A stretch of 64,000 bases of DNA from contig NC_088295.1 of assembly GCF_032854445.1 (NCBI RefSeq), positions 10,341,385 through 10,405,384 on the forward strand. Direction: 5' to 3'. Of this stretch, positions 8,101 through 57,300 are shown one piece after another (position 1 is the first letter of the stretch; each line of letters starts with the position of its first letter). Source of the stretch: Liolophura sinensis. Its lineage: Eukaryota; Mollusca; Polyplacophora; Chitonida; Chitonidae. The notes below the pieces were generated by a model. That model was not told the origin of the DNA and made no database searches. It worked only from the letters and a program-made list of their open reading frames with translations. The position numbers and the translations under genes were made by a program.

Positions 8101-11100
8101 TTTCTTTTTCTTTCAGGTGTTAGAAGTGATGGAAATCACACAGTTTATTTCTCACTCAACATTTTTCACTTGAAATCTTCTGATCAAGGAACCTATTACT
8201 GTAAGGTGGAAGGAATGGATGACAAGATGATTTACGATCTTGTCATCACAGGTGAGATTCTTTCATGGTGATGGTGATGACAATGATGACCAGATCTATG
8301 ATCTTGTCATCACTGGTGAGAGGCTAACATGATGATGGTGATGACAATGATGCTGTCACCACAGATAATTTGCTATCATGGTGATGACAATGATGTCCAT
8401 CATGACCAGATGATCTTGTCATCACAGTGAGAGGCTATCATGATGATGGTGATGACTAAGGTGATCTATGATGTTGTCACCACAGGCAAGAGGCTATCAT
8501 GATGATGGTGATGATTTGTCATCTTGTCATCGTGTCTAAGAGGCTGTCAGGATGATGGTCATGACTTTCATGATCCATGATGTTGTCATCACAGGCAAGA
8601 GGCTATCAGGATGATGGTGATGACATTGCTGTAGGAACAGAATATTACTTTTAATTTCCATGAGACAGCACCTACCGTGGTATTGTATCGTATAGTTGAA
8701 AATATTGTTTCTGCTCAGACTTTATTGTTTGCAGTTGCAGTTATCACATATTTGGTGCAAATCAATTTAAAACTGAAAATTGTGTAGCGTTTTGTTCCAG
8801 AGTATGAGATTTACTGTTTACTTGCTGATTGTATGAATACTGATAAAATGTTCCTTTAAATTTGACAGATGCCAAACGCCCCACCCCTCCGGTCTCTGTT
8901 CCCATAGCTAATCATACAGGTGAGTAAGACATTTTAGCGTATATGTGTGTGCACCTGAACATGTGTATGTCTGTGTGATAGATTGGTAATCTTGATCTCT
9001 CAGTTCCACAAAATTCCGTGATTGGTTCATCCACTCAATTTGTGCCATGAACAAATGTTTCCATTTAAACTCATGATGTACATGTAGACAGCAGGATCAA
9101 AGTAATGAACAGCAGTACAGTACCCGCACACTAGATAATTTAAAGTGAAAGACAGCACCTGACTTATGTTTATGTCCATTGAAAGACTACCATGCAGAGT
9201 TACCAGAACCGACATTATATATTTTTTTTTCAAACCAGCAAAAAATTAGTAAATCTTTATCTTGACACACCTTTAGCACATCTCCATTATCGTGAGAAAG
9301 GTGACGTCACGTTTACTCTAGCTGTCTAATGTTGAAGGTATTTTCTGTATAATAGTCTGGGCAGTAGTATATAGCAGATAGAAGTTGTGGACTTCAGCAT
9401 TTCAAATAGTGAGCTGAGCCCAGCCATTTGGATGCACATGTACTTGTAACCCCTTACATGGTCATACGGTGCTGTGACTAAGATATTACAAAACATTTAA
9501 AGGCCAAAACAGCACCTGGCTAAATCATATTTAAACCGAAATCAGGAAACTGAAGATTTCTAAAAAAAAGTATCATACTTTATTATTTTAAGGAGATTTC
9601 GCTGAATAACATGTAGAACCAAATGACAATTCTGCACAATGGCTGGTGTGAATCGAGGCAGCCATTTTCAGAATTTTATCCAATCAAACATATTGTTATC
9701 ACATTGCGTGGCTTGAGCTGTGACGTTGCCTTTACCCATCACTCCATGAAGTGACATAACACTACTGCCGAAGACATCTTTTTGAGATCGTTTACAATGA
9801 CTTAGGTATGTGTTTCACCAGTACCATTTCACACAGTGTTGTGGGACAGGTCTGTATCATTTACGAACCACCACAGATGTAAATTCAGTTGATTTACAAG
9901 CTGTGTATTATTCAGTATCAGAGTCATTGCAAATCCATTAGGTACGCTGAAGGTTTATGGAAATGAGAAGATGGCATTTCACTGGACAAGACTTAAAATT
10001 AACTAAATCTTATGATAAAATAAATTAAATCTGAAGACATAATTATTTTTCTGTGAATTTATTAGCACAGCTCAAGCCACGCCATGTGATAACAATATGT
10101 TTGATTGGATAAAATTCTGAATTCTGGCTGCCTCGATTCACACCAGCCATTGTGCAGAATTGTCATTTGGTTCTACATGTTATTCAGTGAAATCTCCTTA
10201 AAATAATAAAGTATGATACTTTTTTTTTAGAAATCTTCAGTTTCCTGATTTCGGTTTAAATATGATTTAGCCAGGTGCTGTTTTGGCCTGTAAATGTTTT
10301 GTAATATCTTAGTCACAGCACCGTATGACCAGGTAAGGGGTTACAAGTACATGTGCATCCAAATGGCTGGGCTCAGCACACTATTTGATAGATGCCATAA
10401 GCCAGCTGAATATGGTTCTCTCGCACTGGTTTTGAGCTACATGTATGGACAGTTTGCTGAGGGCTACCTGGCTCATCAACGGATTTAACAGATTTTCTGC
10501 CCAGATGTGTCAAGCACTGGTGCATTACATTTTCTGCGCTTATATTAAATTGAATACAATTATTAATATATCATCATTAATATTAGGACAAAACTGTAGT
10601 GTACCAGTTCTTATGGAGAGTGGAACTGTAAATAGCTGATTAAACATCAAATTCACCACCTGAAAACTCTGAACCTGAAGTCTGTTCAGAGCTGTCGGTG
10701 TCATTAATTACAACTTCAGACAATTACAACAGCAGTATATCTGCTTCTGCATAGCGACTAGTCCATCGCTGACTCTGAAAAAACATGGCGCCGATTTCAA
10801 ACTCCCATCTCCTTCCCACTTACATCAATCTGACTCATTTCCTCTGTTTATTTATATGTAAGTTTATGGTGGAATCTCTAATACTGTCTTCTTATTTACT
10901 ATACTCACCTATGAAACAAATAGGTGGCCACATCGACTGCTAGAACTACGGCGATATGAAGTGCCTCTCTCTTGACAGCCATTTTGAAGTGTCACGTAAC
11001 CTACTTCTGGGTTTGAAATGCAACTAAGTTTTGGTATTGAAATCCTCAAGAAAACTATTATATTTTGATTACAAGTCCTGTATAAAGGACTTGTATTTTT

Positions 11101-32100: not shown

Positions 32101-35100
32101 AATTACAGGCTCACATCTACCAGACACCTGTTGGTATAATAGATGAGGGAAAACCAGTGAAACTAACCTGTGGCTTTAGCGGATCTCCATCCCCATATAA
32201 ATATAGGTGGCTACTCAATTCTAAATTTCTGACCACTGGATATTCCTACAACATTCTCAAAGCAACTCGCCAAAATGAAGGCTGGTACACCTGTGAAATT
32301 GAAAGCCGAATTGATAAGGATAAACACAGCAGATACTTGCCAATTAGATGTAAGTCACTCATTCCACACAATGCTTTTTGTTCCGTAAACAATGGCCATT
32401 GTATTATACACAAGTTTAACCTTTGTAACTATTCAGTGCAGAAAGTTTTTTGGTTTTAAAGTCACTAAAGGTGTTTTGAAAATTTGTGCTTGATTTTTCA
32501 TCACATTAAAATTTTGTCATCATTTGCTGTGGCCTTAACATATATGATGTATATGTATAATGTATGAAGTGTCATTCTCACATACATGATGTGTGATTCT
32601 CAAATGTGTGAACTGTCATTCTTGCATATGTGTAGTGTGATTCTCAAATACATATACATGATGTGCGATTCTTTAATGTGTGGAGTGTGATTCTCATGTT
32701 GGTGAAGTGTGATTCTCACATACATGATGTGTGATTCTCAAATGTGTGAACTGTCATTCTTGCATATGTGTAGTGGGATTCTCAAATACATATACATGAT
32801 GTGCGATTCTTTAATGTGTGGAGTGTGATTCTCATGTTGGTGAAGTGTGATTCTCACGTACATGATGTGCGATTCTTTAATGCGTGGAGTATGATTCTCA
32901 TGTTGGTGAAGCGTGATTCTCACGTACATGATGTGCGATTCTCAAATGTTTAGAGTGTGATTCTGATCTTGGTGAAGTGTGATTCTCACATACATGATGT
33001 GCGATTTTTTAATGTGGGGAGTGTGATTCTCACGTACATGATGTGTGATTCTTTAATGTGTGGAGTGTGATTCTCATGTTGGTGAAGTGTGATTCTCACG
33101 TACATGATGTGCGATTCTTTAATGTGTGGAGTGTGATTCTCATGTTGGTGAAGTGTGACTCTCACGTACATGATGTGCGATTCTCAAATGTTTAGAGTGT
33201 GATTCTGATCTTGGTGAAGTGTGATTCTCACATACATGATGTGCGATTCTCAAATGTATGAAGTGTAATTCTAACATACACTGTATGTGAAATGTGCATG
33301 CAGCTCATGGTGTGACCTGGTGCTTTCATACTCTTGACATGCACTGATGTTCACTTTGACTGCTGTTGCTGTTCTTGTTTTAAGATAAGCCAGAGGTGAT
33401 ATACATCCAAGGTGATTTGGTCCCGCCTAGTCAACTTTACACCGCCCACTTGACCTGCATGTTCAAGGGGCATCCTACCCGAATACAGTGGAAGAAAGAC
33501 AACCAGCCTGTCAACTCATCTCGTATTTTTAGTCAAAAAAGCCGAGAAGACATTACCAATGGCACAACAATTGCTGTGCTGGAGATCGGCCTGATTAAGG
33601 AAGAGGATTATGGGCACTACACATGTAATGGAAGTAACAGTTATGGGAGTGCTCTGGGTGTAGCTGAGATAACAAGTAAGCATAACTGTAGGTTATGGGA
33701 ACTACATGTATAATTTGAGTAGCTGAGATAACAAGTAAGCACTACTGTAGATTATGGGAACTACCTGTCATTGGGAGTAACAGTTATGGGAGTGCTCTGG
33801 GTGTAGCGAAGATAACAAGTAAGCACAACTGTAGATTCTGGGAACTACTCGTGTAGTGGAAGTAACAGTTAAGGGAGTAACAGTTATGGGAGTGCTCTGG
33901 GTGTAACTGAGATAACAAGTAAGCACAACTGTAGATTCTGGGAACTACTCGTGTAGTGGAAGTAACAGTTATGAGAGTAACAGTTATGGAGTGCTCTGGG
34001 TGTAGCTGAGATAACAAGTAAGCACTACTGTAGATTATGGAAACTACATGTCAATGGGAGTAACAATTATGTTAGAACTCTGGGTGTAGCCCAAATAACA
34101 AGTATTATAAAGCATAACTGTAGATTATGAGCACTAGATAGTGTAATAGAAGTAACAGTTGTGGGAGAGCTCTGGGTGTAGCCGAGATAACAAGAAAGCA
34201 CAACTGTAGATTATGGCAACTACATGTGTAATGGGAGTAACAGTTATGGGAGTGCTCTAAGTGTAGCCGAGGTAACAAGAAAGCACAACTGTAGATTATG
34301 GAAACTACACGTGTAATGGGAGTAACAGTTATGGGAGAGCTCTGGGTGTACCCGAGGTAACAAGTAAGCATAATTGTAATTATCCTTTATCACATATGTC
34401 TAATAAGATGAACCTGGTAATAAACATTTATGATGTGGTTTTAATGTCAGTGGGACAGACTTGGCAATATATACAATGATGAATGGCATCAGTTAACAGT
34501 TAACTGTCAATAAAGTGGATAATAAACATTGAAAAGTCCTGTGTGATGTTTTTGAGAAAAATTAAATTGTTTCTTAAGAATTAAAAACTAAAACAAATAG
34601 TTTTTGATAGGTTAATTTTTATTCCTAGACTGACATTTGGGCCATTTTAATTTACAGCAGCATCCATGCAGTGGAATGTTGTTGATGTAGAATGTATAGA
34701 ATGTGGAGATATTAGAGATTTGCTGTTCACTTAAACCCTTTGTGCCTTATCTGTCAGTGGAAGAGTCCTCACACCTGATTCTACTTGTTGTATATACCTG
34801 TACATGAAGCCTGTCTACTTTCCCCAGACCCAGAAACCATTCCTGAGAGTACAACACCACCATCCTTACCCTGGGCTCCGAATATGACAGGTAAGTCAGC
34901 CTGTCAATGTCAGGATGTCTCTGTTTATCCACTTCTTATCTACCTGCTACTTTGCCAGATTTAGCTCCAATATTGTAACCAGAACTCCTGAAATTCAGAA
35001 ATTAAGTAAACCTTCTTTTTCAGGCATGAGTTTGTTAATTGATTTGGACACACACTCTGAGCACTGGCAAACTATTTTGAACATTGTTTCCTTCAAAACA

Positions 35101-40500: not shown

Positions 40501-43500
40501 GGATTCCCGAGAACTCCTATCTCTCATAGGCCGTATATAAAAGAGGCAGACCGAATTGCTTACCAGTAAGCAATAAATAATTAGGCCACATATCAAGGAG
40601 GTAAAACTTTAAATGCCTGTCAACAACTCACAGACTTAGAGTAGAAGAAAAAATATCCCAAGTTGAGGCATGAATAGAAATGATCACCAAAGACTCATTA
40701 TTAGGGTTGTATGGTTTTCTAATTTTAGTCAGGTGATGTACAGTGTATCGCACACATCAAATGTACATAGCTGAACATTATCTGGATGATTAAACCCATG
40801 TTTCAACAGTGTATTATAGACAAGCACAGCAATCATTTTGTCTTAATATTGTGGCCTAATATTGAATAAAGCTATTACACCTGTGACTACACATGATCCT
40901 TGTCCAGAAGTCATTTTGTTGTTTGGACACAAGCCTACCTAAACTAGCGTGATATTACTGGAGCAGTTTATGTACATTTAGAAATCTTCAGCAATATTTC
41001 TACAATAGGGATAGACACAGCCCAGCATTACCTGCAGATGTTCATTGTATGCCAGGACAGTTTAATACCATGGCCTTCTATTGATGTATTTTATTTGATT
41101 TGAGTTTTACGCCAAGAATATTTCACTTATACGACGGTGGCCAGCATTGTGGTGGGAGGAAACCTGGCACAGCCAGCGGGAGAAGAAGCCAGCATGAGCT
41201 GGACTTGAACTCACAGTGACCGCATTGGTGAGAGGCACCTCGGTCATTGTGCCATGCTAAACCCTCGGCTTTGGAGGCCAACAAGATAGGAATATAATTT
41301 ATTTATGAATATTAAAAGTTGTACCTGACCCAGGATCAACATACCACAGATATCTGTTTGGCCCCTTGCGGATCGCCCTTGCGGTGGTAGAGGATATGGT
41401 AGAAGGAGATTTTATCTGGATTTTGAATGGGTGGTTCCCAGGAGAGCCACGGAAGCCCCTTCATGGCTTTCAGTGAATAAATAGATTTACGTACATACTA
41501 GAGAGCTTCTTGACAGTAATGAAGATACATAATCATACAGGTTTTTTTTTTTACCGAAGCAACAGAGAAATAAAATTTGTGAGAAGTGATATACTAAATG
41601 GCCATGCCATACCAAATCATGTGTTGTAATGAGATATAGGTGTAAAACTTTAAAGTTCAATCAAAGCACCTACATTGTAAGTGCAGTGGCAAATCAGGTG
41701 TTTGAGAGTGGTTCAACATTAAGCTTCAACTACATGTAGAATGGTGTAATAAATATTACAAGTTGAACATTACCTCTTATTTCAGATTTACTGCCCAGTG
41801 CTCCTCGGAATCTCCATGGTCAACTGCTCTCTGACAGAGTTATCTCTCTTACGTGGAAGAGTCCAGATGTCAGAACAGCGCCTATAGACAACTATACCGT
41901 ATTTTATCGTCCAGAAAAAAATGTACTTTACAAAAATGTACGTCTCTCGAAGTGTCTACTTACCCATTTTGCTTAGTCTTCAAACTTCCACAATTTAATA
42001 CTTTTTGAATAAAAAAAAAATAGTACTTTTGGAATACATAAAAAATAGTACTTTTTCAAGAAAAAAAATAGTACTTTTTCAAGAAAAAAAATAGTACTTT
42101 TTGAAGGTACTGTGGTGTTTACCTCCTTACCTTTAGTACAATCCTTGGTTTTACTTACGTGCCATAGGAAAATCATCTCAAACTACTTTCTTATTTTTCT
42201 TGAGAACGGATACTATGCCTTTATTTGATTTGTGTTATTTGTTACTAATTATTCTTTTACTTTCAAATTAGCTCAAGTTCAGATGTCTGAAAATGTTCCT
42301 GGGCTGGGGTGGTAATTTTGATATTGAAATTTTGTTTAAATTAAAAAGCATCTGATTGTAATGTGGTCATTATTTCATTCCAGATTAGTGTGCCAGCCGT
42401 TACCACTTCAGTCATTATTGAGAATCTAACCTTACAGTCTGAGTATGAGATATTTGTGATGGCTCAAAATAAATTTGGATTCGGTGGCAAATCTAATATT
42501 ATCTACATTGATACAGGTGAGGTTTTTTTTGGGGATTTTTGAAAAAATATCCCTTAACATTGGTATTGAGATGCAAATACTCAACAGAAATATTCACATG
42601 TGGATTTTTACCTGAACAAGTGCTTATTATACTGATAAATTCAGAGGATTAAAAATAAGCATTGTGAATAGATTTGTAACATGCAAGATAGCAATATTGT
42701 CTGGTGAGACCTTGTCCACACAAGATCTGCAGGATAAGTGAGTTGATCTTTTTGGCCAAAATCCCTAATTTTGTATTATGCCTAATACTGAAGTGCCTTG
42801 GGTACAGGTGTGTTTCGGGTTTCTCTAAGATGGCCTCTTAAGAATTCCAGATTAAGATGTGATTTATAGAGTCACCAAGCATGTACATGTAGTAAAAAAA
42901 TGGCTCTGTGTGTTTAGGTCTATATGGACCACTCTTCTGAAATAACTTGGGTTATATTTTTTTGTTGTCTTTCTTTTAATAACATGGGCTTGTTAAATTG
43001 ATCCACGTCTTTTCAACAAAAATCAGCCTTCAAGTGTTTGGTGTGGTTTTTTTTTTCAGGTGAAATTGCCACCAAACCTTCAGGTAATGTTTTTTCCTGA
43101 GCACTAAGTGATTATTAGAGGAAGTATTTGGTTCAAAATAGCTTATTTTATGTACATTTATTTAACAAATTTTGCTGAATTATCTGAGCTGGATATGAAC
43201 TCCACCCGTGTGCTGTTTTAGAGTTCAATGTGTCTAATACTACATCAGATTAAAGAGAAAGTAGAAAGCTTTTTATTAAAGTATTTAAATATGACATTGG
43301 AAATATAGGAACAAAGTCTTGGCCGTAATTCTCATTAGGATTGATTGGAATGTTTCATGCTACTGTGTGTTTTCTGATCAGCATTTGAATGTGTCAGGCT
43401 ACTGTGTGTTTTCTGATCCCCATTTGAATGTGTCATGCTATTGTGTGTTTTCTTATCCTCATTTGAATGTGGCAGGCTACTCTGTGTTTTCTGATCAGCA

Positions 43501-45938
43501 TTTGAATGTGTCAGGCTGCTCTGTGTTTTCTGATCCTCATTTGAATGTTTCATGCTACTGTGTGTTTTCTGATCAGCATTTGAATGTGTCAGGCTACTGT
43601 GTGTTTTCTGATCAGCATTTGAATGTGTCAGGCTACTGTGTGTTTTTTGATCAGCATTTGAATGTGTCAGGCTACTGTGTGTTTTCTGATCAGCATTTGA
43701 ATGTGTCAGGCTACTGTGTGTTTTCTGATCCCCATTTGAATGTGTCATGCTATTGTGTGTTTTCTGATCCTCATTTAAATGTGGCAGGCTACTCTGTGTT
43801 TTCTGATCAGCATTTGAATGTGTCAGGCTACTGTGTGTTTTTTGATCAGCATTTGAATGTGTCAGGCTACTGTGTGTTTTCTGATCAGCATTTGAATGTG
43901 TCAGGCTACTGTGTGTTTTCTGATCCTCATTTGAATGTGTCATGCTATTGTGTGTTTTGTGATCAGCATTTGAATGTGTCAGGCTACTGTGTGTTTTCTG
44001 ATCAGCATTTGAATGTGTCAGGCTACTGTGTGTTTTCTGATCCTCATTTGAACGTGTCAGGCTACTGTGTGTTTTCTGATCAGCATTTGAATGTGTCAGG
44101 CTACTGTGTGTTTTCTGATCAGCATTTGAATGTGTCAGGTTACTGTGTGTTTTCTGATCAGCATTTGAACGTGTCCGGTTACTGTGTGTTTTCTGATCAG
44201 CATTTGAATGTGTCATGCTACTGTTTTTTTTCTGATCCTCGTTTGAATGTGTCAGGCCACTGTGTGTTTTCTGATCAGCATTTGAATGTGTCAGATTACT
44301 GTGGTTTTACTGATCCTCGTTTGAATGTGTCAGGCTACTGTGTGTTTTCTGATCCTCATTTGAATGTGTCAAATTACTGTTGTTTTACTGATCCTCATTT
44401 GAATGTTTCATGCTACTGTTTTTTTTTCTGATCCTCGTTTGAATGTGTCAGGCTATTGTATGTTTTCTGATCAGCATTTGAATGTGTCAGATTACTGTGG
44501 TTTTACTGATCCTCATTTGAATGTTTCATGCTACTGTGTGTTTTCTGATTCTTATTTGAATGTGTCAGGCTACTGTGTGTTTTCTGATCCTTATTTGAAT
44601 GTGTCAGTTTATTGCGGTTTTACTGATCCTCATTTGAATGTTTCATGCTACTGTGTGCTTTCTGATCCTTATTTCAATGTGTCAGATTACTGCGGTTTTA
44701 CTGATCAGCATTTGAATGTTTCACCCTACTGTGTGTTTTCTGATCCTCATTTGAATGTGTCAGATTACTGCGGTTTTACTGATCCTCATTTCAATGTTTC
44801 ACGCTACTGTGTGTTTTCTGATTCTTATTTGAATGTGTCAGATTACTGTGGTTTTACTGATCCTCATTTGAATGTTTCAGATTCTAGTGAAGTCAACTCT
44901 GTGGGCATTGGTGTTGGCATTACCGTTGTTTTACTTCTCCTCATAGCCATCATTCTCTTGGCCGTGTACTACTTCAAGTAAGCTCCTCTGATATGCTGTC
45001 AAATAAATCTCTTTTAGATGATAGTACATGTACTTTATCAACTCCAACTGATTATCTATATAATAAATATATAAATTGCATTCTGTTTGGAAAATGTGGT
45101 GCAGTGTTCTTGAAGTTTTGCTGTGAAAATCTTTAGTGCATGTATTTAATGCTCTGTGTAACAGCTTGTACATCTACTGTTATTTTCCTGTCAGGGTGAG
45201 GAGACACTCTCTGAAGGAGCCTGGAGCAGTGTCATTTGAAAATCCGGGCTATGCTGAGGGCAATAACAGTGTACAGGTATGTAATAGGAGGCCGAGAGAA
45301 AAACATGTAACATTGCATATTCTGCACAATGTACCTGTCAGATAGGGAAAGTTATCCCAGACAAGACAAATAAGCCATCTACAGTCTGTGTGTACTGTTC
45401 CCTGAGAGGCTGCTTACTTACATGTATGTCATTAACTTCTGGGAACTGGCAAATCTGGCAAATATGGGAACTTTGAACTATTGAACCAAGTGCAATAGTC
45501 AGGAGGTCATTCACCTTGAGAACAGGGCACCAGATCCACTACCTGAGTCATGCATCATTAACTGTACTCGGTAGGAACTCAGATTAATTGGATATGCCAA
45601 GTTCTGCTCTGCCTTATGTCAGTGATGACAGATCATTTAGACAGTTTATCCGTCAGATAAATCACAAAGTACTGCTATCAGAACTGTTAACTTATGTTTT
45701 TTTCCTTATATATTTCTAGATATCAGGTCTGCGGAATGATGTACCAGATAACAGCACACTGCAGCCTGTCTCTGTAGCCACGCATACACCAGAGACGTTT
45801 GATTATGGAAAATTACATGACGATGGCTACTCATCACCAGCTAACCCTGACTACGCCACTCTGGACGTGACGCAAACAAACGCTGTCAACACACAGCAGG
45901 TCAAACTCTCTGTTGACAAAGATAACTCTGAAGCCTAA
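2096..45938 (+). CDS. receptor with Ig, DB-module and FN3 domains (whole gene, 37 coding exons)
   Basis: This is a single-pass cell-surface protein of about 1641 residues, inferred by joining 37 exons whose phases all agree. Domain order: signal peptide (1-25), Ig1 (26-155), then four cassettes of linker, 12-Cys DB module and FN3 (156-1017), Ig2 and Ig3 (1018-1198), fifth linker-DB-FN3 (1199-1406), FN3-6 (1407-1501), short stalk, transmembrane helix (about 1517-1540) and a 100-residue tail with FENPGY and ANPDY. Ig plus FN3 plus DB modules is the make-up of the C. elegans IGDB proteins; the DB module has no established biochemical role. An adhesion or signalling receptor is inferred from the ectodomain and NPxY motifs. 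Introns are crowded with minisatellites, several of which overlap splice sites. The weakest point is the start of exon 2. Alternative splicing by whole-cassette skipping would keep the frame. Confidence 0.85.
3049..3287. repeat. 18-bp minisatellite, about 13 copies
   Basis: Tandem copies of GTGTACATGTTACAGTAT with small variants. The unit is a multiple of three, so frames stay open on both strands for about 90-140 codons; these are not genes. Confidence 0.9.
4621..5860. repeat. 54-bp minisatellite, about 17 regular copies then decayed ones
   Basis: The unit includes GTGGGCTGTCATGTCTGGTG and CTTGTGTCTGTTG. Copies are regular to about 5510 and drift afterwards. Open frames exist on both strands (275 codons plus, 306 codons minus, 18-residue periodicity). 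No splice sites or domains support coding use. Confidence 0.9.
6120..6274 (+). CDS. receptor exon 2: Ig1 first part
   Basis: Encodes the front of Ig1 with the strand-B cysteine (GGSVFLECQV). It ends at TTCA|GTGAGT in phase 0. The start is uncertain. The strongest acceptor (ends 6102) would meet a stop with the phase-1 exon 1. A weaker one at 6119 or one at 6173 (start 6174) keeps the frame; the latter would shorten the protein by 18 residues. Confidence 0.65.
6275..7406. other. receptor intron 2
   Basis: No gene, RNA or clear repeat recognised in this stretch. Confidence 0.4.
7407..7506 (+). CDS. receptor exon 3: Ig1 middle
   Basis: Phase 0 to 1. Encodes VSWYFLEHNVRI, with the invariant core tryptophan of an Ig fold, through to SVEQPQYAG. 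Acceptor CACTTCAG|GTTAGC, donor GCAG|GTTTGT. Confidence 0.85.
8117..8251 (+). CDS. receptor exon 4: Ig1 end
   Basis: Phase 1 to 1. Carries the closing Ig motif SSDQGTYYCKVEG with the second core cysteine. The strong acceptor follows a long pyrimidine tract. The donor ATCACAG|GTGAGA is the first unit of the minisatellite that follows. Confidence 0.9.
8218..8632. repeat. minisatellite containing the exon 4 donor, about 7 copies
   Basis: Units of about 55-70 bp repeat the last 30 or so exon bases, the donor and the following GATGATGGTGATGAC. The second copy keeps GGTGAGAG; later copies carry GCAAGA or other decayed forms. The array starts inside coding sequence, so exon and intron were duplicated together. 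Confidence 0.85.
8869..8919 (+). CDS. receptor exon 5: linker before DB module 1
   Basis: A 51-nt phase 1-1 exon encoding a proline-rich linker (DAKRPTPPVSVP) between Ig1 and the first DB module. Acceptor TTTGACAG, donor ACAG|GTGAGT. Confidence 0.8.
8920..9401. other. intron 5, left part
   Basis: No feature recognised before the foldback element that begins at 9402. Confidence 0.4.
9402..10388. mobile_element. foldback (long inverted repeat) element
   Basis: Two arms of about 320 bp (9402-9722 and 10066-10388) are near-identical reverse complements around a 343-bp unrelated centre. The outer ends are TCAAATAGTG and its near complement CACTATTTGA. No transposase frame is seen, so it is probably a non-autonomous DNA transposon or MITE-like foldback. 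High arm identity suggests a young insertion or gene conversion between arms. No clear target-site duplication was found. Confidence 0.8.
10389..11279. other. intron 5, right part with decayed repeat
   Basis: About 10625-10800 resembles 19370-19560 over 150 bp or so, including a minus-strand stretch reading SDxEFSGxEFD. It is probably an old dispersed DNA element. Nothing else recognised. Confidence 0.4.
11280..11405 (+). CDS. receptor exon 6: DB module 1, first half
   Basis: Phase 1-1. Encodes DCCIKEKVSAGCLPIC and two more cysteines, giving the six-Cys pattern CC-C-C-C-C of a DB half-module. Acceptor TTTCCAG, donor ACAG|GTAAGT. Confidence 0.9.
11584..11736 (+). CDS. receptor exon 7: DB module 1, second half
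   Basis: Phase 1-1. DGRNHVSCCRRRQVP begins the second half; six cysteines in the same spacing as exon 6. Second halves in this gene start with D-x-x-x-H and a basic stretch after CC. Acceptor TACACAG, donor CAGG|GTAAGT. Confidence 0.9.
11955..12110. repeat. dispersed intronic repeat copy
   Basis: Shares an interrupted block (CCAAAC... CTTTCTAAGATCA...) with 16745-16870 and 21310-21430. The family is not identified and the copies are diverged. Confidence 0.45.
12416..12570 (+). CDS. receptor exon 8: FN3-1 first half
   Basis: Phase 1 to 0. Starts LPSPPREVTAAPT, with the core tryptophan in VIVDWLSPEE and the Y-x-V-x-Y strand in TGYRVAYRS. All FN3 domains here are split by a phase-0 intron at this point. 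Confidence 0.9.
12812..12956 (+). CDS. receptor exon 9: FN3-1 second half
   Basis: Phase 0 to 1. Encodes GGRYQVYVTAISPHGASQPS, the F and G strands of FN3. Donor CCAG|GTGAGC. Confidence 0.9.
12996..13164 (+). mobile_element. second SINE family, left part
   Basis: GTAGCTCAGTGAG resembles a tRNA A box, followed by a B-box-like GTGAGATCAGTCC. The matching right part lies at 14090-14200, after the 35-bp array, so the array seems to have grown inside this SINE. A related, less interrupted copy is at 38405-38770. Confidence 0.5.
13165..14085. repeat. 35-bp minisatellite, about 26 copies
   Basis: Unit contains GCATACAAGTCTGTACATCA and TGTGGCAC. It has several overlapping open frames on the plus strand but no splice or domain support. 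It lies within intron 9 between two halves of a SINE-like sequence. Confidence 0.9.
14090..14200 (+). mobile_element. second SINE family, right part
   Basis: Carries the family block CAGTAACTTGCCAAAGG, GGTTTATCCCAGGCACT. Similar blocks occur at 22685-22815 and 38655-38770. Confidence 0.45.
14635..14667 (+). CDS. receptor exon 10: linker before DB module 2
   Basis: A 33-nt phase 1-1 microexon encoding DVNSTQNVNIR, with an N-glycosylation sequon (NST). Acceptor TTTTGCAG, donor AGAG|GTAAGT. It occupies the same cassette position as exons 5, 15, 20 and 27. Confidence 0.75.
14932..15047. repeat. 43-bp inverted repeat (hairpin)
   Basis: Arms 14932-14974 and 15005-15047 are imperfect reverse complements separated by 30 nt. 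Possibly a small MITE remnant. No coding content. Confidence 0.75.
15440..15520 (+). mobile_element. tRNA-like SINE head fragment
   Basis: TTTAGTCTAGTGGTAGGAGT resembles a tRNA A box and GCTAATTCAAATCCCC a B box, about 30 nt apart. There is no clean cloverleaf, so it is read as a SINE head rather than a functional tRNA gene. Confidence 0.4.
16005..16139 (+). CDS. receptor exon 11: DB module 2, first half
   Basis: Phase 1-1. ECCKKHHVLFECEDNFC plus two later cysteines, six in all. The usual GV-P signature after CC is replaced by HHVLF. Acceptor TTTCAG, donor GCAG|GTTAGC. Confidence 0.85.
16298..16546 (+). mobile_element. SINE (main family), near full length
   Basis: tRNA-like head (TGGCTCAGTCGG), conserved body (CATAATGCTGGCC, AAGTGAAATATTCTTG) and AATAAATAAA tail. 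Ten-bp target-site duplications (TTTTTTGTAG) flank it at 16288-16297 and 16547-16556. Confidence 0.9.
16745..16870. repeat. dispersed intronic repeat copy
   Basis: Diverged relative of 11955-12110 and 21310-21430. Confidence 0.4.
16922..17074 (+). CDS. receptor exon 12: DB module 2, second half
   Basis: Phase 1-1. GGQDHAGCCRTRGFPEQC and three further cysteines, six in all. Donor TTCA|GTAAGT. Confidence 0.9.
17075..17753. other. intron 12
   Basis: No gene. 17450-17578 is weakly similar to 2850-3012, including TTTCTGATAAGAAATTAAT. Confidence 0.4.
17754..17914 (+). CDS. receptor exon 13: FN3-2 first half
   Basis: Phase 1 to 0. LPAAPQNVRVESIG, core tryptophan in AVLEWEQAY, and YIVQYRIRT. Donor AGAG|GTTAGT. 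Confidence 0.9.
17995..18197 (-). mobile_element. SINE (main family), 5'-truncated
   Basis: Reverse copy lacking most of the tRNA head. Perfect 12-bp target-site duplications (GTGATCAAATGA) at 17983-17994 and 18198-18209 show retrotransposition with 5' truncation and a fairly recent insertion. Confidence 0.9.
18410..19040. repeat. diverged tandem duplication, two copies of about 310 bp
   Basis: The first copy (about 18410-18710) and second (about 18745-19040) share GACCATTGG-like, TTTGCACTCAG and TCACGTGACCTCCA blocks in the same order. Likely part of an old mobile element; no coding frame. Confidence 0.6.
19370..19560 (-). mobile_element. decayed DNA-element fragment
   Basis: Homologous to 10625-10800. 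The minus strand can read MDSSYTEANILPYP and SDVEFSGAEFD over about 55 codons, an acidic start like those of some invertebrate transposase genes. Family not determined. Confidence 0.35.
19752..19875 (+). mobile_element. SINE (main family), 3' fragment
   Basis: Retains GTGGGTTTCCCC, CATAATGCTGGCC and AAATATTCTTGAGTATGG. Head is absent. Confidence 0.85.
19880..20705. other. intron 13, right part
   Basis: No gene or repeat family recognised. A 71-codon open frame at 20276-20491 has no domain or splice support. Confidence 0.4.
20706..20838 (+). CDS. receptor exon 14: FN3-2 second half
   Basis: Phase 0 to 1. ILSPLRPDTVYDATITSEHG is the classical L-x-P-x-T-x-Y pattern of the FN3 E-F region. Donor CCAG|GTAGGA. 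Confidence 0.9.
21134..21205 (+). CDS. receptor exon 15: linker before DB module 3
   Basis: Phase 1-1, 72 nt, encoding EELFITSSPADNSSDIIP; Ser/Pro-rich with an NSS sequon. Donor GAAG|GTAACT. Confidence 0.8.
21310..21430. repeat. dispersed intronic repeat copy
   Basis: Third diverged copy of the family at 11955-12110 and 16745-16870. Confidence 0.4.
22203..22335. repeat. 30-bp minisatellite, about 4.5 copies
   Basis: Unit CCCACCCCCATTTGGCCTGT plus TCCCCACACT. Very C-rich on the plus strand. Short open frames on both strands are repeat artefacts. Confidence 0.9.
22685..22815 (+). mobile_element. second SINE family, 3' part
   Basis: CAGTAACTGGCCAAAGG, GGTGGTTTACCCCC and an AATAAATAAATAAATAAA tail. 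Head not identifiable. Confidence 0.5.
22878..23021 (+). CDS. receptor exon 16: DB module 3, first half
   Basis: Phase 1-1. GCCQRKAVPSHCLWIC with six cysteines in all. The donor TTCAG|GTAACT is repeated several times in the following intron. Confidence 0.9.
23000..23292. repeat. minisatellite containing the exon 16 donor, about 6 copies
   Basis: Units of about 35-45 bp carry CAGGTAACT(AGT) followed by a TATTGAATGAATTAATGA-like stretch. CAG|GTAACT recurs at about 23064, 23188 and 23230, with decayed forms near 23143 and 23271. The copy at 23167-23187 also repeats the last 21 exon bases. Confidence 0.8.
23745..24642. repeat. 20-bp minisatellite, about 44 copies
   Basis: Unit TTTTACACCAAGCGGTAGGG with many point variants. 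It ends about 90 bp before the next exon and does not include its acceptor. Confidence 0.9.
24733..24888 (+). CDS. receptor exon 17: DB module 3, second half
   Basis: Phase 1-1. DHRNHTPCCQASLVPQEC, six cysteines. Acceptor TTGTCCAG, donor AGTGG|GTTAGT. Confidence 0.9.
25248..25423 (+). CDS. receptor exon 18: FN3-3 first half
   Basis: Phase 1 to 0. LLPRSPVNVTVLNV, core tryptophan in ITLQWEPDN, then TGYILEYTT. NVT sequons are present. Donor GCAG|GTAATG. Confidence 0.9.
25500..25735. repeat. dispersed intronic repeat copy
   Basis: Resembles 27829-28045 over about 220 bp, ending GGTTGAAGAATTACAGTA in both. Family unknown. Confidence 0.6.
25762..25897 (+). CDS. receptor exon 19: FN3-3 second half
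   Basis: Phase 0 to 1. NLKSGFYYLISVVSENDNG is the FN3 E-F-G region. Donor GATG|GTAAGA. Confidence 0.9.
26345..26437 (+). CDS. receptor exon 20: linker before DB module 4
   Basis: Phase 1-1, 93 nt. Gly/Pro/Thr-rich linker (GFTTPGPGTTPHPGG), likely O-glycosylated and extended. Acceptor CCATCTAG, donor ACAG|GTAAGG. Confidence 0.85.
26438..27472. other. intron 20
   Basis: About 1 kb with no gene or recognised repeat. Confidence 0.4.
27473..27586 (+). CDS. receptor exon 21: DB module 4, first half
   Basis: Phase 1-1, the shortest DB half (38 residues). DCCTTKGVREECLSVC then ASC and LAC give six cysteines. Donor GCTG|GTAAGA. Confidence 0.9.
27829..28045. repeat. dispersed intronic repeat copy
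   Basis: Partner of 25500-25735. Immediately upstream (27725-27805) is a fragment resembling the second SINE family (GTTTCCTCCGCCTAAAAACC). Confidence 0.55.
28525..28680 (+). CDS. receptor exon 22: DB module 4, second half
   Basis: Phase 1-1. DGGDHSGCCRRRDVPLHC, six cysteines. Very close in pattern to exon 7. Acceptor CTTTTCAG, donor TGCAG|GTCAGT. Confidence 0.9.
28880..29043 (+). CDS. receptor exon 23: FN3-4 first half
   Basis: Phase 1 to 0. IPSQPRNFRIDQIN, core tryptophan in LRLLWDPPL, then YILNYGRFK. The donor ACAT|GTAAGT lies at the left edge of the following minisatellite. Confidence 0.9.
29033..30306. repeat. minisatellite containing the exon 23 donor, about 29-30 bp unit
   Basis: Core unit GGCAATATACAATGTACCTT plus AGTCCAACA, repeated about 30 times. 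The exon end (CCAATATACAT|GTAAGTG) is itself a unit variant, and close copies of it with ATGTAAGTGTG recur near 30111 and 30269. A SINE inserted at 29452-29732. Confidence 0.85.
29452..29732 (-). mobile_element. SINE (main family), near full length, inside a minisatellite
   Basis: Reverse copy with a TTTATTTATT tail complement, conserved body and tRNA-like head (GTGGCTCAGTGGGC on the minus strand). AACAGGCAATATAC flanks it at 29438-29451 and 29733-29746; this is both array sequence and target-site duplication, so insertion came after array growth. Confidence 0.85.
30473..30602 (+). CDS. receptor exon 24: FN3-4 second half
   Basis: Phase 0 to 1. LRGLEPDTLYEVYVLARRKN matches the L-x-P-x-T-x-Y-x-V FN3 motif. 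Donor GAAG|GTATGG. Confidence 0.9.
30738..31275 (-). mobile_element. third SINE-like family, copy 1
   Basis: Shares GTTGCC-GG-TCCAC, AGTTCATGAT and GATTAGGCAAT-TTGATCTTCTGCTGAT blocks with 37028-37410. The minus strand reads GGGTTCAAGTCC, a B-box match, so a tRNA-derived SINE is possible. A fragment of the main SINE family (30848-30900) interrupts it. Confidence 0.55.
30848..30900 (-). mobile_element. SINE (main family) fragment
   Basis: Body fragment ACCATCCGCAGGTTGCTGAC to CACGTACAGCCGGA only. Confidence 0.8.
31276..32097. other. intron 24, right part
   Basis: AT-rich, no gene or repeat recognised. Confidence 0.4.
32098..32349 (+). CDS. receptor exon 25: Ig2
   Basis: Phase 1-1. A whole Ig domain in one exon: EGKPVKLTCGFSG (first Cys), YRWLLNSKF (Trp), NEGWYTCEIESR (second Cys). 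Unlike Ig1 it is not split by introns. Acceptor CCCAACAG, donor AGAT|GTAAGT. Confidence 0.9.
32560..33285. repeat. composite minisatellite in intron 25
   Basis: Repeats built on GTGTGATTCTCACATACATG, GATGTGCGATTCTTTAATG and ATGTTGGTGAA in higher-order blocks. It lies clear of both splice sites. Minus-strand open frames are artefacts. Confidence 0.9.
33385..33675 (+). CDS. receptor exon 26: Ig3
   Basis: Phase 1-1. Complete Ig domain: YTAHLTCMFKGHP, IQWKKDNQPV, EEDYGHYTCNGSNSYGSALG. Sequons include NSS, NGT and NGS. The donor ATAACAA|GTAAGC and the preceding 70 or so coding bases are repeated in the next intron. Confidence 0.9.
33604..34372. repeat. minisatellite made from the 3' end and donor of exon 26, about 8-9 copies
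   Basis: Units of about 80-100 bp repeat GGAAGTAACAGTTATGGGAG, TGCTCTGGGTGTAGC and GAGATAACAAGTAAGC. Complete ACAAGTAAGC donors recur near 33734, 33816, 33918, 34015 and 34367; three other copies are decayed (ACAAGTATT, ACAAGAAAGC). The first unit is the real exon end. Confidence 0.9.
34828..34890 (+). CDS. receptor exon 27: linker before DB module 5
   Basis: Phase 1-1, 63 nt. NPETIPESTTPPSLPWAP, Thr/Pro-rich. Acceptor TTTCCCCAG, donor ACAG|GTAAGT. Confidence 0.85.
34891..36375. other. intron 27
   Basis: About 1.5 kb with no exon I accept. Loose repeats with TTTCAG-CATGCC occur from 35890 on; the one at 36122 opens a Cys-rich frame (see rejected list). Confidence 0.45.
36376..36498 (+). CDS. 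receptor exon 28: DB module 5, first half (two Cys lost)
   Basis: Phase 1-1. ACCMSKGVRADRLDLC and a final LQC leave only four cysteines. The third (replaced by R/L) and fifth of the usual six are missing, while length and splice phases fit the other first halves. Acceptor TTATTTCAG, donor GCTG|GTAAGC. Confidence 0.85.
37028..37410 (-). mobile_element. third SINE-like family, copy 2
   Basis: Diverged partner of 30738-31275. The minus strand retains a weakened B box (GTACGGTTCATATCC). Confidence 0.5.
37541..37571. repeat. (TAA)n microsatellite
   Basis: About ten uninterrupted AAT triplets. Confidence 0.9.
38145..38294 (+). CDS. receptor exon 29: DB module 5, second half
   Basis: Phase 1-1. 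DERDSTKCCQKSRVSDLC, six cysteines. Acceptor CTACTTTCAG, donor CAAA|GTAAGT. Confidence 0.9.
38405..38770 (+). mobile_element. second SINE family, longest copy
   Basis: Degenerate tRNA-like head followed by CAGTAACTTACCAA, GGTGGTTTACTCCGGGCACT and an AATAAATATAAA tail. It shows that the split pieces at 12996-13164 and 14090-14200 belong together. Confidence 0.5.
39138..39301 (+). CDS. receptor exon 30: FN3-5 first half
   Basis: Phase 1 to 0. LPSPPLNLIAHAP, core tryptophan in LALSWKPPI, then YHVLYHRKGDP. Donor TGTG|GTATGT. Most of this exon and its donor have an antisense copy at 41330-41445. Confidence 0.9.
39197..39610. repeat. inverted duplication, left arm (exon 30 end, donor, SINE)
   Basis: Reverse-complement partner of 41088-41445. 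A 79-nt stretch across the donor differs from its partner at only two positions. Confidence 0.9.
39364..39610 (+). mobile_element. SINE (main family), diverged
   Basis: Full-length layout (GGGGGCCTCCATTGCC... CATAATGCTGGCC... CAAATAAATAAA) with many substitutions. It forms the outer half of the left inverted arm, so it was present before the duplication. Confidence 0.85.
40041..40164 (+). CDS. receptor exon 31: FN3-5 second half
   Basis: Phase 0 to 1. LKVTEEGVYTVWMVAGNPSG. Acceptor GTCTTTCCAG, donor ACAG|GTAAGC. It lies in the loop between the inverted arms. Confidence 0.9.
40342..40526. mobile_element. small foldback element
   Basis: Arms 40342-40398 and 40466-40526 are imperfect reverse complements sharing GCGTGGGGGCACTCGC and GGAAGTTAG, with a 67-nt loop. 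MITE-like; no frame. Confidence 0.75.
40527..41087. other. intron 31, middle
   Basis: No feature recognised. Confidence 0.4.
41088..41280 (-). mobile_element. SINE (main family), reverse copy in inverted duplication
   Basis: Counterpart of the SINE at 39364-39610, with an internal deletion in the body. Confidence 0.85.
41330..41445 (-). pseudogene. antisense copy of FN3-5 exon 30 and its donor
   Basis: On the minus strand it reads SW-PPI-NPDKISFYHILYHR and continues KGDPQGAKQISV|GTATGT with no stop. Differences from exon 30 are few and conservative (K/E, K/Q, V/I twice). As it points against the gene it cannot be spliced into the receptor mRNA; the whole right arm is 41088-41445. Confidence 0.85.
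41786..41937 (+). CDS. receptor exon 32: FN3-6 first half
   Basis: Phase 1 to 0. LLPSAPRNLHGQLL, core tryptophan in ISLTWKSPD, then YTVFYRPEK. This FN3 follows FN3-5 directly, with no DB module between. Donor AAAT|GTACGT. Confidence 0.9.
42384..42516 (+). CDS. receptor exon 33: FN3-6 second half
   Basis: Phase 0 to 1. IENLTLQSEYEIFVMAQNKF. Acceptor TTCATTCCAG, donor ACAG|GTGAGG. Confidence 0.9.
42517..43059. other. intron 33
   Basis: No feature recognised. Confidence 0.4.
43060..43083 (+). CDS. receptor exon 34: 24-nt stalk microexon
   Basis: Phase 1-1, encoding GEIATKPS. Strong acceptor after a T-rich tract (TTTTTTCAG) and donor TCAG|GTAATG. Skipping it would keep the frame. Confidence 0.7.
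43340..44880. repeat. 39-bp minisatellite ending in the transmembrane-exon acceptor, about 40 copies
   Basis: Unit TGTTTTCTGATCAGCATTTG plus AATGTGTCAGGCTACTGTG. Each unit has a branch-point-like CTGAT, a pyrimidine-rich stretch and, in most copies, TCAG; the last copy is the acceptor used by exon 35. The plus strand reads 13-residue repeats (GYCVFSDQHLNVS) with an N-V-S sequon and one cysteine each. The frame shifts once, at a T run near 44418, after which about 11 units stay open into exon 35. Treated as intronic, but exonised use is possible. Confidence 0.9.
44881..44977 (+). CDS. receptor exon 35: stalk end and transmembrane helix
   Basis: Phase 1 to 2. DSSEVNSVGIG leads into ITVVLLLLIAIILLAVYYF, a single helix followed by basic residues (K, VRRH), giving an outside-in orientation. 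Acceptor GAATGTTTCAG, donor TCAA|GTAAGC. Confidence 0.9.
45195..45276 (+). CDS. receptor exon 36: membrane-proximal tail with FENPGY
   Basis: Phase 2 to 0. KVRRHSLKEPGAVSFENPGY. The NPxY motif is a known PTB-domain and endocytic signal; its use here is inferred. Donor ACAG|GTATGT. Confidence 0.9.
45720..45938 (+). CDS. receptor exon 37: tail end with ANPDY and stop
   Basis: Phase 0 start, ends at TAA 45936-45938. Contains FDYGKLHDDGYSSP and ANPDYATLDV, a second NPxY whose YATL also fits a YxxL sorting motif. Several tyrosines in acidic context could be kinase sites. Acceptor TTTCTAG. Confidence 0.9.
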   Translation: MSGLRNDVPDNSTLQPVSVATHTPETFDYGKLHDDGYSSPANPDYATLDVTQTNAVNTQQVKLSVDKDNSEA

Positions 45939-54300: not shown

Positions 54301-57300
54301 TATTTTATTGCTTATGACGTCACAACGCATGGACTGATCCTGTTGACGTCGCACACAGAACCATTCACATGCAAATCATGTCAATGGCAGTTATAGTGTG
54401 GGGGTGTATAAAAGCCCATGTGCTTTCGTATTTTATTCATTCATTCGTCGACGAAAGGCAGTCGGTAAAATGCCGCGACTGAGTGCTGCCGACCGAAATA
54501 TCGTCATTGGTCGTCTTCAAGCCGGAGAAAGTTTTGGTACTATTGCACGACACCTAAATGTTCACAAAACAACGATATCCCGACTTTGGAGCCGTTACAA
54601 CAACTTTAATTCGACCAACGATCGCCCGAGAAGTGGAAGGCCAAGAATCACGACCCCACTTCAAAATCGGTACATCCGGGTCCTTCACCTGCGTAATCGG
54701 CATGCCCTACCAACCGTGACTGCCACACAAATACCAGGTTTGAGGAGAGTGTCGGCTCAAAAGATTAGGAACCGTCTGAAAGAAGCGGGTTTACGTGCCT
54801 GTAGACCAGTTGTTGGACCTGTACTACGCCCCTTACATCGACGCCTACGACTCAGGTGGTGCAACAACGTAAGGATATGGACTTTACAAAACTGGAGGCG
54901 CATCTGGTTTTCTGATGAATCCCGTTTTCTTTTGACACGTCACGACGGAAGACAGCGTGTGTATAGGAGACGTCATGAACGCTTTGCGCCCATCTGCGTC
55001 CGGCAGGTGGACAGATTTGACGGAGGCAGTGTTATGGTTTGGGGAGCCATCTCGTACAACCAGAAATCAGGCTTAGCGATCGTTCCAGGGAACCTGACAG
55101 CCCAACGTTACATCAACCACGTGTTACAGCCTCACCTTCTCCCGATTATTGACCGACAGACACAGCTTTTTCAGCAGGACAACGCCAGGTCTCATACTGC
55201 ACGTGCAACAATGAACTTTCTGCAGGATTCCAACGTCAATGTCTTGCCGTGGCCCTCTAAGACCTCAACCCTATTGAACACCTGTGGGATACTCTGGATC
55301 GACACGTGCGTCAACGTCAGCCACCGCCACAGACGCTTCAACAACTCCCCGTTGCGTTACAGGAGGAGTGGAGGGCCATTCCCCAGGAGAGAATCCGGCG
55401 TCTTATCCGTTCTTGTCCAAGGAGATGCCGTGCAGTGATTGCAGCTCGCGGTGGTCATACGAGATACTGAGGAAGACGCCCCCTGGTGAGCAACTGGTGT
55501 CTGTGAGATGACTTTCGAAAAGACAGTTTTAAACATGACCATCTTGATTATTATTCTGCCAAATGTCTGACTTCTGTCTTCAATAAGAAAAAAGTTGTGC
55601 CGTCCTAAAACTAAATATTAAAATCTCTAAAATACGGGGGTTGCGTTTCTTTTTTGACAGAGTTTATGTAAATTGCATGAAAATGAAATAAACTGGGATG
55701 CTTATAACATCTTTTCATTTAAATCATCTAAATATTAAACACAGGTTTAAAATATAGCACGGAAACATAGACGACTGGAAGAAAGTGATAGTATAAGCAT
55801 CATGTATGCATCTCCGGTATTCCCCAAGTGAGAAAGTTCTGAGCTGATATATAATTTCCACTTTCCAAGCTGTACACAGCGGCGTTTCGAATGGGAAAGT
55901 GTGTTTAAATATTTAACACTAAGACAACTGCTTATTCTAACACTAATGTTATAAGTGCACATATCTACTAGAGGGTTTTGTTCACGCGAGTAATGGGCCC
56001 TCCATCCGTGATTTCATTGCGACCTAACTGCTGGAAAGCAACTCGATCAGATACTCGTGGGACATTCATGTTTATGTGCATCCCTTTATTTCATCGTCTC
56101 CAGTTCAAAGAGATCTACGTGGTTTAGTAAGTAATATTTGTACTCACTGATAAAAACTGCATGCGGAATAATTTTTTCTACTTCGTATATTTCTGTTGTT
56201 TCCTCATCCTCCAGTAAAGTGTGTTCTCCAAGAGCAGCGCTCCAGCTTGTAACGTCGTCCAGTCCTTCGTAAGTCGTGTTGCTGTGAAAACAAATCACAC
56301 AAACAAATATATACAAAACATAGATATGTCACTCATCGGCCTGTATTTCACACAATATCAACGACTACGTTCTGCGGCTCACATATACTGCCATAAACAT
56401 ACAGAGCCAAGTTGTAAACTGTGACGGCTCCTGGTACTGTTTGGGCCTCCTTGATCATCGAAATCACAAAGGAAACGCAATACATTATGTGTAAATACTC
56501 AACTTATGGACTCTAAACAAGGCACGAAATTAAAAAAAGCTGTAAGGAAATCGGAGGTGTTAACATCCTGGAGAATAACCAGTTCGCATAAAGTTTGTGA
56601 AATGTGAAGAATACACGAACGCAGGGTAAATGATATTGTAGGTATTTTTTATTTTTTTGTTGTTGTGAAATGCCGGGTAGGATTACAAATGGCAGCAGGC
56701 AAAATTTCATCCAGAAAGTTCATCAGATGGTGCTGTGAAGAAGAGCTGCTGGAGAAGGCATAGACGAAAGCATGTGCTTGGTAAAACAGCTCAGTGTTAC
56801 TGCTGACGTTATCATCAGAAGAGACGTTTAGGTTGGACGCTGAAACATCGTCAGTTGCATACATGTACATGTGGAAACCACCGACTGTATGCTGGAGCAT
56901 GGGGTTTATAATTACCTGACACAATGAGCTGCTGACACTACCCAGTTCGGATGGACGAGGCTACCACCACACAAGTGAGAAAAGTAATGATCACTGAAGT
57001 TTCTAAACGGATGGAATTCAGAGAACTTGAGGGACACGAGCCATGGCCACTGGCCCACGCTGACAGGGTACCCTCCCGCCACCCGCTTCCGCCGGCTGTG
57101 AGGAAACGTGGACCGCCCACATCCAGGTGCCACCTCTGTCCAAGCAGCAACGCAAAATCCCAGGTAAGTTAATATCCCAGGTAAGTTAATATCCCAGGTA
57201 TGTTAATATCAACGCACATAAAAATTACGATATATAAGGCCAGATTTAGAGAGGCTATACACCAGAGATTTTGAAAAATCCATATTCATTAATAACATGA

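Follow-up and report, generated by a model that had tools for sequence, protein, structure and literature searches.

Gene organization

The window analyzed here is a stretch of 64,000 nucleotides (C1:10341385-10405384) of a 609-Mb mollusc genome. It contains a plus-strand gene that spans roughly 8-46 kb of the window, and whose product is a membrane protein. On a hand-joined exon model, Pfam assigns 5 stretches of this protein to FN3 and 4 to the DB module, in addition to Ig domains. The gene model is rough, and the exon numbers 34 and 35 are taken over from the original prediction, an earlier note on this DNA. The 3' portion of the gene is organized as follows:

42384..42516, plus strand: exon 33, which completes the last FN3 domain with its second half and ends in phase 1 (crude gene model and sequence)
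43060..43083, plus strand: exon 34, a 24-nt symmetric (1-1) microexon encoding GEIATKPS (acceptor 11.7 bits, donor 8.0 bits)
44881..44977, plus strand: exon 35, 97 nt, encoding DSSEVNS and the membrane span (translation, gene model and length)
45195..45276, plus strand: exon 36, cytoplasmic tail with FENPGY (gene model)
45720..45938, plus strand: last coding exon, ending in VKLSVDKDNSEA followed by a TAA stop (sequence; a whole-genome protein search matches only this copy)

Exon 34 ends in phase 1 and is compatible in phase with exons 33 and 35. We infer the junction of 43083 with 44881 from the phase, the splice signals and the membrane span.

A search of the genome for paralogs of the C-terminal 184 residues returned no other gene (4 matches from 6 candidates, all in this one). 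The search for orthologs, in which 7990 candidates were scored, revealed six proteins that are relatives of NCAM, LAR and ROBO. The database fragment P0127 (tag lgn, taken as Logan assemblies) is 80% identical to exon 33, covers 22% of the query and lends support to this exon. A second protein search, with a three-unit insert in the query, returned this single exon-33 fragment, which does not extend to exon 35. No Rfam match was found at gathering scores.

Structure of the 39-bp array

Most of intron 34 is occupied by a minisatellite that ends directly before the first base of exon 35. Its parts are the following:

43344..44880, plus strand: 39-bp minisatellite, 39 units and a partial first one, making up most of intron 34 including its 3' end (TRF and unit table)
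43359..44294, plus strand: 5' part, 24 homogeneous units, neighbours about 91% alike at lag 1
44295..44880, plus strand: 3' part, 15 more divergent units, type A (GTTTTAC) and type B, arranged loosely as a 78-bp dimer
44419..44427, plus strand: 9-T run, which offsets the two parts of the N-V-S frame by a +1 shift and is followed by a TGA at 44429-44431
44452..44842, plus strand: seven upstream in-frame decoy acceptors, given by their first exon bases, with a frame open into the membrane exon
44842..44880, plus strand: last unit, with a branch-point-like CTGAT, a weak pyrimidine tract and the authentic acceptor TTTCAG

TRF delimits the array at 43344-44880 with a period of 39, 39.4 copies, 86% matches and a score of 2141. 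When cut backwards from 44880, it yields 39 units, of which 38 measure 39 bp and the remaining one, which holds the 9-T run, 40 bp. The earlier count of about 40 tandem copies of a 39-bp unit before the transmembrane exon is thereby borne out. The splice signal of the junction next to the array recurs in its units, with CTGAT in 35 of the 39 and an AG at the acceptor column in 27. This agrees with the composition first proposed for the unit (CTGAT, a pyrimidine stretch and TCAG), except that the pyrimidine tract is weak (5.3 bits). The array ends at 44880, with the authentic junction as its last copy, and exon 35 starts at 44881; the last unit is indeed the acceptor of that exon, as had been claimed. 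It differs from the unit at 44491-44529 solely in the acceptor G.

An extra AG, in the context GATCAG, is present in 18 of the 39 units and would enter out of frame; 16 of these 18 fall in the 5' part of the array. In the 3' part, unit identity is 0.777 at lag 1 and 0.858 at lag 2, in line with the dimeric arrangement. A DNA search of the 609-Mb genome with the 39-bp unit, of a kind that can miss common words according to the tool's own warning, gave 14 matches, all of them in the window at 43360-44880. A dispersed repeat family that landed at the acceptor by chance is made unlikely by this result, since the unit was found at the array locus only. The first 10-20 nt of exon 35 were also compared with the unit starts, giving P values of 0.09 to 0.65 for type A and 0.54 to 0.91 for type B.

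Companion arrays and minisatellite content

Two further arrays in the same gene lie at exon borders, in both cases on the donor side:

33657..34369, plus strand: nine copies of an Ig-exon end together with the adjacent 5' splice site, the authentic exon ending at 33675
8236..8600, plus strand: five degenerate copies of an exon end and its 5' splice site, counted with up to 6 differences in 22 bases; authentic end 8251

The units of both span intron and exon sequence. Of the 9 copies at 33657-34369, 6 retain the donor context AAGTAAGC unchanged, the authentic one counted.

Minisatellites, defined by a period of at least 15 and at least 2.5 copies, are abundant in this genome. A 200-kb sample, drawn non-randomly from 20 places in the first 20 Mb of C1, holds 58 arrays that make up 14.2% of the bases, including 9 with at least 20 copies and 2 of at least 1.5 kb. 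The same rule gives 19 arrays and 11.8% of the bases in the window. The size of the 39-bp array is thus ordinary for the sampled part of the genome. Junctions are touched by 3 of the 13 arrays of the gene against 1.0 expected by random placement (P 0.067), a comparison in which several exon borders are unverified and the array start at 33636 was set by hand to include the exon copy, the TRF rows beginning at 33773. The sampled arrays are not significantly enriched for splice donors, the only signal counted (5 of 58 against 3.4 expected). Because neither the junction contacts nor the donor content is significant, the junction arrays may be a by-product of the very large number of arrays. Elsewhere in the window, a 54-bp minisatellite at 4613-5849 has open frames of 285, 293 and 314 aa, on both strands, and provides a built-in control for array frames.

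Splice-site strength and proposed origin

Splice sites were scored with generic acceptor and donor matrices written from general knowledge. The authentic acceptor at 44881 scores 5.3 bits, and only one of the 19 other modelled acceptors of the gene, themselves chosen with the help of the same matrices, scores lower. Seven upstream acceptor-column AGs equal or exceed it. Intron 34 as a whole has 64 AGs, of which 24 reach the score of 44881, itself counted, and the signals therefore do not single out the last unit. Exon definition from a downstream donor is an established idea, and the last unit likely wins through exon definition from the donor of exon 35. The AG is missing in 5 of 6 upstream type A units as opposed to 7 of 32 type B units (Fisher P 0.008). 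Selection against strong decoys was considered as the cause of the type A losses and rejected, because the type A units are probably mutual copies and the loss maybe a single event.

We favor, with a probability of roughly 0.77, a junction-anchored intronic minisatellite that was born locally and is spliced mainly at 44881. In a mollusc Ig/DB-module/FN3 membrane-protein gene, lying in a minisatellite-rich genome, the last 39 bp of intron 34 with the branch-point-like box, the tract and the AG would have been duplicated in tandem and then expanded within the intron. The terminal unit would remain the real acceptor since exon 35 and its donor adjoin it, and the upstream copies would be neutral decoys. 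Because the exon side of the junction is not detectably repeated, the presumed origin from the acceptor is argued from position and uniqueness. Splicing from 43083 to 44881 would be dominant, and leakage, if any, would be minor and confined to the in-frame copies closest by; perhaps a few extra splice sites leak, to a minor extent.

A related possibility, which we hold only tentatively and regard as rather unlikely, is that 44842, 44764 and 44686 are used as functionless noise in a few percent of transcripts. These sites score 4.0, 3.8 and 5.3 bits, respectively, compared with 5.3 for the real site, and would give exons of 136, 214 and 292 nt, which are of usual size. The scores in favor of such noise come from a generic matrix. 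According to PMC4526556, donors within a repeat are used in human IFI6; the amphioxus junction arrays, on the other hand, are reported to be regularly spliced by RT-PCR (PMC3087553). Leaky use of nearby in-frame acceptors is still conceivable since several of the decoys match or exceed the authentic site in strength, and some leakage to 44842, 44764 or 44686 is plausible. Noise of this kind is compatible with a locally born, mainly neutral array and differs from it in amount only.

Reading frame and coding potential

All 27 acceptor-column AGs enter the N-V-S frame from exon 34, and upstream acceptors thus come in the phase that the original prediction had deduced. The reading frame agrees with the predicted truncation of upstream entries by the T-run as well: 19 of the 26 upstream acceptor-column AGs precede the 9-T run at 44419-44427, and all 19 lead to the TGA at 44429-44431. 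The remaining 7 of 26 keep the frame (44452, 44491, 44569, 44608, 44686, 44764 and 44842) and would add 143, 130, 104, 91, 65, 39 and 13 residues, respectively. Of the proposal that the last 11 or so units add in-frame blocks of 13 residues, the open frame stands, but upstream of 44881 only these seven acceptors can be used. Two AGs that fit the phase lie between 44842 and the membrane span, namely 44881 (5.3 bits) and 44893 (0.6 bits); the latter lies inside exon 35 in a GAAG context, and its use would drop 4 residues.

These features had led to the proposal of a functional, alternatively spliced, length-variable and N-glycosylated stalk, in which exon 34 is joined to various units and the protein gains blocks of 13 residues. 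The seven phase-compatible acceptors, all open to the membrane exon, speak for it, as do the 11 N-V-S sequons in the 143-residue tail and the use of extra repeat donors in human IFI6 (PMC4526556). By contrast, the same tail has 13 Cys, with two in each of two units, and in-frame insertion of units often adds an odd number of Cys; the expectation of one sequon and one Cys per block is consequently matched for the sequons only. A content of 13 Cys in 143 residues is unlike a typical stalk. Likewise, most upstream acceptor-column AGs lead to a stop, the block is absent from the proteins among 450 candidates of limited length range, and the array is ordinary for the sampled part of the genome.

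The open frame itself is expected without a coding role, since a repeated 39-mer keeps its own frame by arithmetic. Among mononucleotide-shuffled units, 95.9% (0.959) have an open plus-strand frame, and the minus strand of the array likewise has an open frame of 323 aa. The differences among units amount to 33 distinct derived states, of which 10 are synonymous, 23 non-synonymous and 0 stop, against 8.4, 23.3 and 1.3 expected, respectively (P 0.28). Coding constraint on the added blocks is thus not significant in this substitution test, which has low power. Variant cells number 34, 43 and 59 by codon position, a mild third-position excess that favors a stalk and leans the opposite way to the null result. 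With an open frame that is trivial, no significant synonymous bias, odd Cys numbers and an ordinary array, the claim of a functional stalk is not supported, and we consider it very unlikely. Equally slim are the prospects of a length dial, in which alleles or tissues would pick among the seven in-frame acceptors, the glycosylated stem would vary by 13-residue steps, and upstream units would yield truncated, membrane-free forms.

A regulatory decoy is also highly improbable. In this view, splicing factors would be bound by the many GU-rich, acceptor-bearing units and would thereby set how often the membrane exon is included, and with it the balance of membrane and soluble forms. The motif TGTGTGTTTT, present in 25 of the 39 units, and the weakness of the authentic acceptor are consistent with such a role. 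GU-binding splicing factors exist, but those invoked at this locus are putative, and skipping of the 97-nt exon 35 would shift the frame. Finally, a coding VNTR exon, in which the whole array is or formerly was translated in two frames joined by the 9-T run, is barely credible and was rejected in view of the substitution test, with its non-significant coding constraint, and of the frameshift at that run, even though open stretches of 378 and 192 aa jointly span the array and four Pfam families pass the whole-protein cut-off on a 356-aa upstream stretch (up to 47.5 bits). These families are unrelated, and none reaches its cut-off in any individual stretch, the pattern to be expected when weak repeat matches are added up.

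Comparison with known junction repeats

The locally born, junction-anchored minisatellite that we favor resembles repeats described in amphioxus globin genes, where minisatellite-like arrays in which a 5' or 3' intron-exon boundary is duplicated in tandem are called mirages (PMC3087553). The authors of that paper take Adh3 data and their own RT-PCR as a sign that splicing stays regular, and they allow for the use of cryptic sites within the repeats. Further lancelet cases (PGBD5, Adh and TnC) appear in PMC3902484. In the amphioxus mirages as in the present gene, tandem units carry a splice signal with the authentic junction alongside, both 5' and 3' boundaries can be affected, and many, though not all, copies keep the AG or GT. 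The two companion arrays of the gene likewise copy exon ends with their donors. The units of the amphioxus Adh3 mirage reportedly range over 10-72 bp, which includes 39. Unlike the amphioxus arrays, the present one belongs to a mollusc, its copy number is above the 6 and 3 of BflGb6, and no repetition of the exon side is detectable in this 3' array.

A minisatellite with multiple splice donor sites is said to have been described in human IFI6 (6-16, G1P3) by Turri in 1995. There too, a short tandem unit provides a series of alternative splice sites next to a coding exon; according to PMC4526556, two downstream repeat units act as alternative donors. The human repeat differs in acting on the donor side, with three mRNA species, whereas the sites reported here lie on the acceptor side and are candidates by sequence. 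In human paralogs, internal tandem repeats at exon-intron boundaries can alter splicing, and the expansion of minisatellites at junctions can give rise to introns as well as to splicing changes (PMC2812944). Those repeats, in contrast to the present array, lie in segmental duplications, half of them within coding exons, and are accompanied by transcript evidence.

Our literature search, made mostly at the level of listings, brought up no acceptor array described in a mollusc. With three junction arrays in a single gene, and in a genome whose minisatellites reach exon borders, the present case extends to a mollusc a phenomenon described in amphioxus. Since dozens of nearly alike acceptors compete in it, the array is also a natural experiment, on a large scale, in how the spliceosome settles on one of them.

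Other features of the window and genome

A 17-bp repeat at 57157-57210, whose unit holds AGGTAAGT, overlaps the start of a minus-strand open frame with a trypsin domain. A Tc1-like transposase frame at 54347-55438 has a database protein match (tag lgn) that covers 96% of the query with 91% identity. The SINE-like tail AAACACCAATCAAATAAATAA occurs at nine places in 14446-54104 with at most 3 mismatches and is presumably one known from molluscs; a 19-letter piece of it was not found by a full-text literature search.

Outside the window, a haemocyanin gene region was located at C8:37880506-37891931, with eight matches to PF14830 (haemocyanin beta-sandwich domain) within 12 kb, in open frames of 429-529 aa each; the same domain has matches in none of 14 control genomes. 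Haemocyanins of eight-repeat build are molluscan, and on this basis we take the genome to be that of a mollusc. The best matches of two of the haemocyanin units are the solved eight-repeat chains 6r83, 3j32 and 8trz, with KLH1 (4bed) further down.
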